A stretch of DNA of 64,000 nt from Candidatus Marithrix sp. Canyon 246 (lineage in GTDB: Bacteria; Pseudomonadota; Gammaproteobacteria; Beggiatoales; Beggiatoaceae), in assembly GCF_001723685.1 (NCBI RefSeq), contig NZ_MCBX01000002.1, positions 124,001 to 188,000 on the forward strand, read 5' to 3'. A program made the translations under genes and the position numbers. This document shows, piece by piece, positions 19,399-25,406 of this stretch; the stretch's first letter is position 1; each line of letters opens with the position of its first letter. The notes below the pieces were generated by a model. The model had not been told where the DNA came from. It ran no database searches and saw only the letters and a program-made list of their open reading frames with translations.

Positions 19399-19707
19399 TT
19401 AAACATAAGATTTATGTTCTCTACGACGCTTGCCAGCTCGTTGTGTTATCACTCCATGAATTGCATCCAAACCTGAGATATTCAGTGTCGGGTATTTATC
19501 ATTTAATGGTTTTAGAAAATGTTTATCTTCTTCAATCACTAATTGTCTAAAAATATATTCTTCTTCGTGCATTGCAAATACATAGGAGCCATTTTCTATT
19601 ACTCCGTCTAGTTCTATAACTATAATATTTCCATCTTTGAATTCTGGTTCCATACTATCACCTAGTACTTGCAATGCTATTGGGTCTTTACCTGTACAAT
19701 CACTCAT
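19399..19707 (-). CDS. S24-like (LexA/repressor C-domain) protein without DNA-binding domain
   Basis: 102 residues when started at the ATG at 19707, which has an AGGAG 7 bases upstream and overlaps the recD stop as ATGA; the longer reading frame start at 19737 lacks this. The whole protein is an S24/LexA peptidase fold: VLGDSMEPEF with the nucleophile-position Ser18, and YVFAMHEEEYIFRQL. The residue matching the LexA catalytic Lys156 is Arg54, so the Ser-Lys dyad is broken. There is no helix-turn-helix. It is therefore probably not a self-cleaving repressor; it may be a binding or regulatory module. Translational coupling ties it to recD. Confidence 0.8.
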   Translation of the reverse strand: MSDCTGKDPIALQVLGDSMEPEFKDGNIIVIELDGVIENGSYVFAMHEEEYIFRQLVIEEDKHFLKPLNDKYPTLNISGLDAIHGVITQRAGKRRREHKSYV

Positions 19708-21338
19708 ATTAAATCTCCTAATCCTGAAAAGCGGCAACTTTGTTGTGAAATCGCCTCTAAAAATATATCTTTATTACCCCAAATACTAACATGACTACGC
19801 GCACGACTGATTCCCGTATAAAGTAGTTCTCGTGTTAGCAATGGAGATAGTTTATCTGGCAATACAATGAATACCTGTTCAAATTCAGAACCTTGGCTTT
19901 TATGAATTGTCATAGCATAGGCTGTTTCATGTTTTGGCAAGCAATTGGGTGAAAAAGCCCGAATTTCTCCTGTTGCATCTGGAAAAAACGCATTATTATT
20001 TAGTATCGTACCCATATCACCGTTAAATAGTTTTAAGCGGTAGTCATTATGAGTTATCATTATTGGGCGGGCATTATACCAATGACTTGTTGTTGCTATT
20101 AAACCTTTTCTTCTAAATTCTTCTTCTAGCTGCTGATTTATGAATTCCATTCCATATAATCCACGACGATTTGCGCATAAAATACCAATTTTATTATAAT
20201 TTTCTAAAATTTTTGCAGGTACAGATTCCAGAAAACAAGGGGAAAAAATATTGCTTATTTGTTCTATTAAATTTGAATCTAAATCATACCACTTTAAATC
20301 TGGTTTAGAGTCTAATAGTTCTAAAGCTTTATTCGCTTCGCCCTGTTTAATTGTTTGCGCTAATTGCCAAATGCCGCTATTTTTCTTAAACCGATAATTT
20401 TTATTTAAATATACAGTATCTTTGCTATTTTCAGTATGACATAAATCAGCTAACACGGTACCAGTTGCGACTGAGGCTAATTGATCTTTGTCACCAAGCA
20501 ATATTAAACGCGCTGATTTTGATATATTTTTTGTAATTTTTGCCATTAAGGCTAAATCAATCATTGATGCTTCATCAATAACTATTACATCATAAGCTAA
20601 TTGCTTAGCAAATAAACGATGTATTGTATAAGATTCTTTAGGAATCAAATCTTTGATTTCGCTACTACAAGCTAACTCTGGTAAAATTTCTCTAATTGTT
20701 TCTTGTAAGCGCACTGTAGCTTTACCAGTTGGTGCAGCTAAAGCTATGTTTAATTGAGGATTTTGTTCCAACAATAGAGTTAAAATTTTAACAATAGTTG
20801 AAGTCTTACCAGTACCCGGACCACCGGATATTAAGCAAAAATTATGCAATACTGCTGCTTGTGCCGCTTGTTTTTGTTCTTCACTGGCTTTGGAAAATAG
20901 ACGTAATAAACCATTTTCTAATAAGGCATGGTTTATATCTGTACGTTGCATTGTACGACGACTGCTGATCTGCGCAGCTAATTGTTGTTCATAAGACCAA
21001 TAACGATGTAAATATAAACGCATTTTATCCAAAATTAAAGGTTTATAATCACCAGCTTGTCCAACTATAGAACAGTTTTTTAATTGTTGTTCCCATGTCA
21101 GCAGATTAGGACATAAAATCCTTTCTGTCTCTACCGATTCCAAGGGAAAATATTGTTCAGCTAATTGGCTTAAATCAACACAAGAGGAACCATTACTAGT
21201 AAAATGGCTAGTCAGCGCAGCACCTAATAATAAACCATCATTAGTCTCATTAGACAGATCAATGATAAATTTTAGGAATTGAATATCGAGATCAGAAAAA
21301 ATGTTTTGATCTCTTAAATTATTAATCTTGCTTAACAT
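19704..21338 (-). CDS. recD: RecD, exodeoxyribonuclease V alpha subunit
   Basis: 544 residues, slightly short for RecD (about 600). It is the 5'-3' helicase subunit of RecBCD, which processes double-strand breaks. Walker A is GGPGTGKTST at residues 172-181; Walker B is VIVIDEASMID; further helicase motifs are LLGDKDQLASV and the C-terminal TIHKSQGSEFEQVF. recB and recC are not in the window. The start overlaps the end of the FtsK-like gene by 17 bp, and the stop overlaps the S24-like gene by 4 bp, so the three are one translationally linked unit. Confidence 0.92.
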   Translation of the reverse strand: MLSKINNLRDQNIFSDLDIQFLKFIIDLSNETNDGLLLGAALTSHFTSNGSSCVDLSQLAEQYFPLESVETERILCPNLLTWEQQLKNCSIVGQAGDYKPLILDKMRLYLHRYWSYEQQLAAQISSRRTMQRTDINHALLENGLLRLFSKASEEQKQAAQAAVLHNFCLISGGPGTGKTSTIVKILTLLLEQNPQLNIALAAPTGKATVRLQETIREILPELACSSEIKDLIPKESYTIHRLFAKQLAYDVIVIDEASMIDLALMAKITKNISKSARLILLGDKDQLASVATGTVLADLCHTENSKDTVYLNKNYRFKKNSGIWQLAQTIKQGEANKALELLDSKPDLKWYDLDSNLIEQISNIFSPCFLESVPAKILENYNKIGILCANRRGLYGMEFINQQLEEEFRRKGLIATTSHWYNARPIMITHNDYRLKLFNGDMGTILNNNAFFPDATGEIRAFSPNCLPKHETAYAMTIHKSQGSEFEQVFIVLPDKLSPLLTRELLYTGISRARSHVSIWGNKDIFLEAISQQSCRFSGLGDLI

Positions 21339-23397
21339 CTAATTCTACAAATTCTGGGGCTTCATGAGCTAATAAATCATTAATAACATCATCAATTTCC
21401 TGTTCAGAGATCATGCCACCATGTACACGTACAGGGCTGCCTGTGCCAGCCGTCATATATAGCATATCTCCGTCACCCAATAAATTTTCGGCACCAATTT
21501 GACCTAATACATTTCTTGATTCAGATTCATTATCAACTTTAAATCCAATACGAGTTGGAATATTAGCTTTTATTAAGCCTGTTATAACATTCACGTTTGG
21601 ATGCTGGGTAGTTAAAATTATATGAATACCTGCCGCTCGTGCTTTTTGAGTTAAGCGAGTAATATCAAATTCAACTTGTTTTTCCACATTAACATTCATA
21701 AAATCAGCAAGTTCACTAATAATAATGACAATATAATACAATTTCTCTTCTTGAATTTCTAAAACTTGATTATAGTCATGAATATTTCTAACTCCCATAT
21801 TTGCCATCAAATGATAACGACGTTCCATTTCTTGAACAGACCATCTGAATACTTCAGGTATTTGTTCTACGTCATTAATTATAGGTGTTAATAAATGTGG
21901 TAAGTCTGTATAAATAGATAAATGTTTATTATCTATTAATAAAAAACGAACTAGATCAGGTGTAGATTTATATAAGATACTTAGAATTAAAGTATGAATT
22001 ACGGTTATATTTTCTTGTGGATTATTACCAGCAATCAAAATATGTGGAATACGGCTTAAATCAATCACCACTGCTTGCCCAGCAACATCTTTACCTAAAG
22101 CTACTGTTAATGGAGATGAGTTATCTTGATATTCAGAACTATGAAGTAATTCACTGAAATAAACTATTTGACGTTTTGAATTCAGCATTTCAACATTCAA
22201 GGTATTTGCTTGTTGTGTTGCTGCTACATCAATAGTTTTAATATTTAAGACTTTAACTAATGCTTCAGCTAATTCATCAAGATGATTGGTGTTAATATGT
22301 GTTATAGTATTAACTTCAAAATTAGTCAATACTGGACCTATATGTACTGCATTAATTTCTGTTTCAATTGTTAAATCGGCAAAAGCTTTCTTCATCCGTT
22401 GCGATAACATTTTGGCATTAGGTGATTGAATCAAATGTGGCACTGGTTCTAATAGGTTTAAGGCAGGTAATAGTGCAGATTCTGGCTGAGTCAGATCCAC
22501 AGTAGCTGCTGGGATTTCATTAGTTACTTCATTAGATTTTTTTTCATAAAGATCATCATGATCTGCATGATCATCTATATCGTATCGTTCACGCTCCTGT
22601 TGCCATTGTGAACGACGTTGCTGCCAACGTGTATAAGCGGTTTTTGACCATTTGCTGCTATTTTTAAAAAATACTTTTAACCATTGATTACCTAGTTTTG
22701 ATCCTTGCTTAGCATGTGTAAACAGCCAAGGTAAGAATTCTTTATCCATATATTTTCTAATTTTTGGTAACCAAATTAAAGTATGATAGCCTAATAAATC
22801 CATTAATTTAAGCCATGATAATCCAGTTAATAATGTGACTCCGGTAAAAAATATGGCTAGTAAAATTAAAGTTGCGCCTAAACGATTTACAATGGATACT
22901 AAACCATTGCCAATCCATAAACCCAGAATACCACCAGCATGAGTAGGCAATAAGGCACTTTCAACCATAAAATGCACAATAGCTAAACCGCATCCTGCAC
23001 TCAAAGTTAAGATAAAACCAATACCCGGCACTATTAAACTTTTAGGTTCTGCTAAAATATCATGATGTTTGCCTTGATAAATTATCCAACCAGTATATCC
23101 CACCATAAGAGGGAATAAATAGGCAAAATAACCAAATAAATAAAAAAATATATCAGCAAATACTGCCCCTGCTATACCACCTTTGTTATGAATTTCTTCT
23201 ATAGGGCCATTATGTGACCAACCGGGATCTCCACCGTTATAAGTGACTAAAGATACAAAAAAGTATAAACCTACAAAACAAAAAAAGATTAATACAATCT
23301 CTCGTAAACCATGTTCAATAGGTTTATTATTTCTATTATTATTCGATGAATGAATTCTACGATTACTACGGCGTGCTTGTGGATTAGATCGCATCAC
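21322..23397 (-). CDS. FtsK-like membrane protein with degenerate ATPase motifs
   Basis: 691 residues. Residues 30-195 form the four-helix FtsK membrane domain (LREIVLIFFCFVGLYFFVSL and so on). The motor domain is recognisable along its length (PHLLTPIIND, VQEMERRYHLMANMGVRNI, VITGLIKANIPTRIGF, GDGDMLY), but the Walker A position reads AGNNPQENIT (456-465) instead of AGTTGSGKS. The Walker B position reads IVIIISELADFM (556-567) instead of an IVxxxDExAD type. The gamma DNA-orienting domain is missing. ATP-driven DNA pumping is thus unlikely, while a structural role in the divisome is possible. A genuine ftsK should be elsewhere. Sequencing error is unlikely because the frame is otherwise well conserved. 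Confidence 0.85.
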   Translation of the reverse strand: MMRSNPQARRSNRRIHSSNNNRNNKPIEHGLREIVLIFFCFVGLYFFVSLVTYNGGDPGWSHNGPIEEIHNKGGIAGAVFADIFFYLFGYFAYLFPLMVGYTGWIIYQGKHHDILAEPKSLIVPGIGFILTLSAGCGLAIVHFMVESALLPTHAGGILGLWIGNGLVSIVNRLGATLILLAIFFTGVTLLTGLSWLKLMDLLGYHTLIWLPKIRKYMDKEFLPWLFTHAKQGSKLGNQWLKVFFKNSSKWSKTAYTRWQQRRSQWQQERERYDIDDHADHDDLYEKKSNEVTNEIPAATVDLTQPESALLPALNLLEPVPHLIQSPNAKMLSQRMKKAFADLTIETEINAVHIGPVLTNFEVNTITHINTNHLDELAEALVKVLNIKTIDVAATQQANTLNVEMLNSKRQIVYFSELLHSSEYQDNSSPLTVALGKDVAGQAVVIDLSRIPHILIAGNNPQENITVIHTLILSILYKSTPDLVRFLLIDNKHLSIYTDLPHLLTPIINDVEQIPEVFRWSVQEMERRYHLMANMGVRNIHDYNQVLEIQEEKLYYIVIIISELADFMNVNVEKQVEFDITRLTQKARAAGIHIILTTQHPNVNVITGLIKANIPTRIGFKVDNESESRNVLGQIGAENLLGDGDMLYMTAGTGSPVRVHGGMISEQEIDDVINDLLAHEAPEFVELDVKQD

Positions 23398-23469: not shown

Positions 23470-25406
<1,937 letters not shown>

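Follow-up and report, generated by a model that had tools for sequence, protein, structure and literature searches.

The ftsK locus of Candidatus Marithrix

The window, a 64,000-nucleotide stretch of the genome of Candidatus Marithrix sp. Canyon 246 (G000), carries on the minus strand an ftsK-like gene of 691 codons (21322-23397), whose frame, as the original prediction had stated, is open throughout. The gene starts with GTG, an ATG at 23394 being the alternative start, and an AAGGA ribosome-binding site lies shortly 5′ of the GTGATG sequence. Its upstream neighbour is dapB (23470-24279, minus strand). On the other side, the ATG of recD (19704-21338, minus strand) is located inside the 3′ end of ftsK, so that the two frames overlap by 17 nt. 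A scan for promoters and terminators retrieved nothing better than shuffles. The nearest named relative is Candidatus Marithrix sp. BB16 (92% identical). While the overlap agrees with the earlier proposal that ftsK is translationally coupled to recD, the gene order dapB-ftsK-recD was found in the two Marithrix genomes only, and the coupling is thus a genus-level arrangement, not a general one. For the same reason a functional link between ftsK and recD was rejected, and recD is not counted as part of the FtsK system.

The encoded protein consists of a membrane domain, a linker and an alpha/beta motor fold. Three Pfam domains were detected well over the cut-offs (all coordinates on the minus strand): FtsK_4TM (PF13491, residues 30-202, 22792-23310, E 7.9e-41), FtsK_alpha (PF17854, residues 310-404, 22186-22470, E 2.2e-12) and the FtsK_SpoIIIE motor, or beta, domain (PF01580, residues 416-601, 21595-22152, E 3.4e-43). 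The same Pfam search returned no FtsK_gamma match in the window protein. In place of the P-loop AGTTGSGKSV of its relatives, the protein has AGNNPQENIT (residues 456-465, 22003-22032), with Asn at the Lys position, Ile at the Ser position and an acid, Glu462 (22012-22014), replacing the third glycine. The Walker B motif, DE(L/F) in relatives, is reduced to SEL (residues 561-563, 21709-21717); here only the Asp has gone and the catalytic Glu has been retained, so that the earlier description of Walker A and Walker B as both altered was slightly too strong.

The genome, which is 98% complete, contains a single PF01580 match and no other FtsK/SpoIIIE-type gene. The second, complete ftsK for which a search had been suggested is therefore not present in G000.

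Loss of motor motifs throughout the Beggiatoaceae

We compared 35 FtsK proteins of the family, the window protein included, with 18 outgroup FtsKs. The family set covers Thioploca, Beggiatoa, Parabeggiatoa, Halobeggiatoa, Albibeggiatoa, Venteria and Thiomargarita-labelled genomes. GSGKS is present in all 18 outgroup proteins and in none of the 35 family proteins. Likewise, the Walker B Asp, found in 18/18 outgroup FtsKs, is replaced in 34 of the 35 family members and kept in one. Other residues have fared better: the Walker B Glu is kept in 34/35 proteins, the Walker A Lys in 23 (it is gone in the remaining 12, to which the window protein belongs), and an Arg at the position of the arginine finger in all 35. 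The gamma domain, a winged-helix domain that reads KOPS and activates XerD and whose absence from the window protein had been noticed earlier, is missing family-wide: FtsK_gamma (PF09397) was detected in 0/36 family genomes, compared with 19 of 21 other gammaproteobacterial families.

Many of the family genomes are metagenome bins, in which an absence is weak evidence when seen in a single bin and strong when seen in all. An assembly or sequencing error, which had been named as a possible cause of the motif change, can be excluded, since the same loss is carried by three 100%-complete genomes in 1-3 contigs (G003, G010 and G028) and GSGKS is gone in 35/35 members.

In the FtsK tree (a quick tree), a single branch with an SH-aLRT support of 100 sets the family apart, so that one event explains the loss of the motor. 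The trxB gene adjoins ftsK both in Beggiatoa and in outgroups, which identifies the family protein as the FtsK orthologue. Judged from synteny and phylogeny, the window protein is a true FtsK orthologue that descends vertically from gammaproteobacterial ftsK. The possibility of a horizontally acquired or mobile FtsK-like paralogue was rejected, given the 4TM domain, the single origin and the trxB synteny.

The FtsK_4TM domain was found in 35 of 42 family genomes. In two genera, g12 (G012 and G029) and g17 (G017, G031 and G062), neither the 4TM profile nor the whole-protein one detected an FtsK; these five genomes are drafts, 52-99% complete. RecA was found in four of the five, that is, in all four that were searched. 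Two further observations concern the surroundings of ftsK. In one genome, a stand-alone FtsK_4TM protein of 204 aa (L072, G005:C144:91999-92508) is encoded directly upstream of a full ftsK, and is a natural protein consisting of the FtsK N-terminal part only. Twelve family genomes encode, upstream of ftsK, a recurrent membrane protein of ~300 aa with a GGDEF-like stretch (for example, L099 of G060).

Xer recombinases, dif and RecA

The partners of the FtsK motor were searched for in the same 36 family genomes and 21 other families. XerD scored over the cut-off in 14/21 outgroups and in one family genome (G004), where the gene lies at one end of a 6-kb contig. A neighbouring gene on this contig shows up to 43% identity to other families and 32-39% to its own, and the contig is therefore likely foreign. 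XerC (E<=1e-40) was detected in 17/21 outgroups; in the family, the only matches are the same G004 XerD gene and a 179-aa fragment (G027). A dif-like 22-mer, defined as the gammaproteobacterial dif core with <=2 mismatches, a definition too strict to capture a strongly diverged dif, was present in 13/21 outgroups and 1/36 family genomes. In the window genome, XerC, XerD and the dif core (<=2 mismatches) were all searched for and not found.

RecA was found in 34/36 family genomes, so chromosome dimers should still form, and a loss of RecA was rejected as the reason why they would not matter. In G003, G007, G011 and G027 the recA frames are 536-682 aa long and the PF00154 match breaks off around position 198, pointing to an intein in the RecA of several Beggiatoaceae.

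Absence of Xer does not force the loss of the motor, since three outgroups with no XerC/D at E<=1e-40 (G039, G051 and G055) keep both gamma and GSGKS. The case that had been named against the original prediction, a sole ftsK with DNA translocation intact, is thus borne out in its first half only: the gene is indeed the only ftsK of the genome, but its product lacks residues needed to use ATP, and the gamma, Xer and dif partners are absent, which makes intact DNA translocation by the window FtsK appear very unlikely.

Fold and selection

The fold of the motor, said earlier to be kept along its whole length, is recovered both by the FtsK_alpha and FtsK_SpoIIIE matches and by structure prediction. 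The AlphaFold model of the window protein has a mean pLDDT of 82.6, with values of 90-96 across most of the motor. Among solved FtsK motors the best match of the model is 6t8b, with a Z score of 49.1 and an rmsd of 2.0 over 378 residues. As modelled, the FtsK motor fold is intact.

For the closest pairs, dN/dS is 0.10-0.20 over the whole ftsK gene and 0.07-0.25 over the motor; for genes neighbouring ftsK, it is 0.09-0.27 in the Marithrix pair. By this measure, the family ftsK is under purifying selection and is not decaying. The distribution of constraint along the protein is inverted. In FtsKs from outside the family, conservation is much higher in the motor than in the membrane domain. In the family, the membrane domain, which had been described as well preserved in the window protein, is the most conserved part (mean pairwise identity of 0.70 for 4TM and 0.53 for the motor). 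Identity in 4TM exceeds that in the motor (beta) in 591 of 595 family pairs and in none of 184 other pairs (153 outgroup pairs and 31 pairs within five other families). As read from these identities, the focus of selection has shifted away from the pump and onto the membrane domain.

A putative pseudo-translocase at the septum

The usual description of FtsK is that of a DNA pump linking the separation of chromosomes with cell division. We consider it quite probable that the Beggiatoaceae protein is instead a non-hydrolysing pseudo-translocase, a septal membrane scaffold with a passive motor, that arose once in the ancestor of the family. The suggestion that the gene has been kept for a non-motor task is supported by the lack of a second ftsK, the lineage-wide, monophyletic loss and the purifying selection. 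The conversion in the ancestor would have taken place together with the loss of Xer and dif. The four-helix membrane domain would then serve as an ATP-independent septal scaffold, which is the divisome job essential for E. coli FtsK, and the motor domain, no longer a pump, would persist in a passive role, as an oligomeric ring or a platform for docking. What E. coli cannot do without in FtsK is the N-terminal domain, and ATPase-dead ftsK alleles can be carried by otherwise wild-type cells (PMC2585057; PMC2680272).

In cells with very many genome copies, an unresolved dimer or one chromosome trapped per septum would presumably not be lethal, and this tolerance would remove the selection for KOPS/dif/XerCD processing. 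Marithrix cells have been described as highly polyploid (PMC4971068). Polyploidy would, however, permit the loss rather than cause it and is not sufficient alone, since Deinococcus radiodurans, which is also polyploid, keeps an active FtsK (PMC9764985). Even the scaffold role must be replaceable, judging from the two genera whose five draft genomes are devoid of any FtsK.

Residues of the former motor were examined by transferring P. aeruginosa FtsK numbering to the family via the alignment, with K472 of the P. aeruginosa protein taken by us as the anchor. Most positions of the dead P-loop vary freely within the family. The exception is the position of the third glycine, which does not vary in outgroups and is occupied by an acid in every family member (E in 31, D in 4). 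The Arg present at the arginine finger position throughout the family is R587 in the window protein (21637-21639, minus strand) and corresponds to R620 of the P. aeruginosa protein, a residue that extends as far as the nucleotide of the adjacent subunit (PMC7321959). We speculate, tentatively and with some doubt, that the ring is a hard-wired pseudo-ATPase in which E/D462 stands in for the phosphates of ATP and forms a pair with R587 of the adjacent subunit. If so, the hexamer would stay assembled permanently without nucleotide and serve a structural purpose, as a ring at the septum.

A passive DNA gate or tether, in which the ring encircles or clamps septal DNA without pumping and holds or guides chromosomes during closure of the septum, seems rather unlikely. 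Of the DNA contacts described for P. aeruginosa FtsK, namely R632 (the strong contact of loop II), K643, K657 and R661 (PMC7321959), the pore is still equipped with the equivalents of K643 in 35/35, R661 in 33/35 and K657 in 23/35 family proteins, as one would expect of such a gate. The loop II Arg, however, is lost in 35/35 (it is replaced by His599 in the window protein, 21601-21603, minus strand), the K657 equivalent is Glu in the window protein, and the conserved Lys and Arg residues may serve folding or subunit contacts.

Less probable still is that the motor is a slowly decaying relic dragged along by an essential membrane domain. A relic would be compatible with the motor and alpha domains diverging faster than in normal FtsK, with the free variation of P-loop letters other than E462, and with losses that have already gone as far as gamma and, in two genera, the whole gene. 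It fits poorly with a motor dN/dS like that of active neighbour genes, with zero frameshifts among 35 frames, and with residues that have been conserved anew: besides the acid at 462, family positions 626 (D->E) and 632 (D->G) are newly fixed.

That another recombinase or translocase took over from FtsK-Xer-dif is highly improbable. Other tyrosine recombinases do occur in some family genomes, but the XerD profile (E<=1e-3) matches no tyrosine recombinase in G000, in G001 and in many relatives, which means that there is no shared substitute of this type, and G000 has no second FtsK. An ATPase still active through a non-canonical P-loop can be practically dismissed in spite of the retained Walker A Lys (23/35), Walker B Glu (34/35) and arginine finger, because an acid has taken the place of a P-loop glycine in all members, the Mg-binding Ser has been lost along with the Walker B Asp, the Lys itself is gone in 12/35, the window protein has Asn for Lys and Ile for Ser, and gamma, XerC and dif are absent.

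Relation to known systems

The pseudo-translocase proposed here shares with the E. coli and P. aeruginosa FtsKs the 4TM domain, the linker, the alpha and beta motor fold, the arginine finger and, in some Beggiatoaceae members, the trxB neighbour. It differs from them by lacking a working P-loop (as predicted), the Walker B Asp, the loop II Arg and gamma, and the Beggiatoaceae genomes differ in that neither XerC nor dif is clearly present and XerD is confined to a single doubtful case. Close parallels are the ATPase-dead and delta-C ftsK laboratory alleles of E. coli, which are division-competent and do not translocate (PMC2585057, PMC2680272); in the Beggiatoaceae, this would be the natural state, fixed family-wide. 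Loss of dif/Xer in proteobacteria with large genomes, Legionellales among others, was reported in 2009 (PMC2731167). The Beggiatoaceae resemble these bacteria in combining large genomes with the absence of dif/Xer, but have also lost the FtsK motor and gamma, both of which some Xer-less outgroups keep. FtsK-type ATPase domains with predicted loss of catalysis are also known from conflict systems (PMC7159879), where, however, they are effector modules, while the Beggiatoaceae protein is a chromosomal divisome FtsK.

Our literature search retrieved nothing relevant on FtsK, FtsZ or the divisome of Thiomargarita or Beggiatoaceae, nor any report of a family-wide motor-dead FtsK. According to the T. 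magnifica genome paper, division genes are reportedly missing in that species.

Since the FtsK pump appears to be disabled and its recombination system lost, chromosome separation at division in many-genome Beggiatoaceae must differ from that of textbook bacteria. The family, whose members are free-living, have large genomes and are in many cases giant and polyploid, would represent a natural separation of function, with the membrane part sharpened, the pump off and dimer resolution gone. This indicates that bacteria can do without the FtsK pump over long evolutionary periods and offers a natural test of the role of the FtsK membrane domain at the septum. Genome partitioning in giant polyploid bacteria becomes directly testable in cultured Beggiatoa.

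FtsK motors elsewhere in the class

Motor scores were compared across 377 genomes of the class. The family scored at E 1e-36 to 1e-50, under nearly all others, and five low scorers outside the family were inspected. Three of them (G203, G133 and G234) keep GSGKS and were rejected as motor-dead FtsKs. A fourth, G115, was rejected as a fragment at a contig edge in which Walker B and gamma are intact, and in the fifth, G400, the P-loop region is unreadable. Two proteins from unrelated families, L140 (G203) and L141 (G133), have Asn-Glu for the Asp-Glu of Walker B next to an intact P-loop. Finally, in a 1.1-Mb genome (G382), the frame of the FtsK motor is broken (L145/L146), and the gene is possibly a pseudogene.
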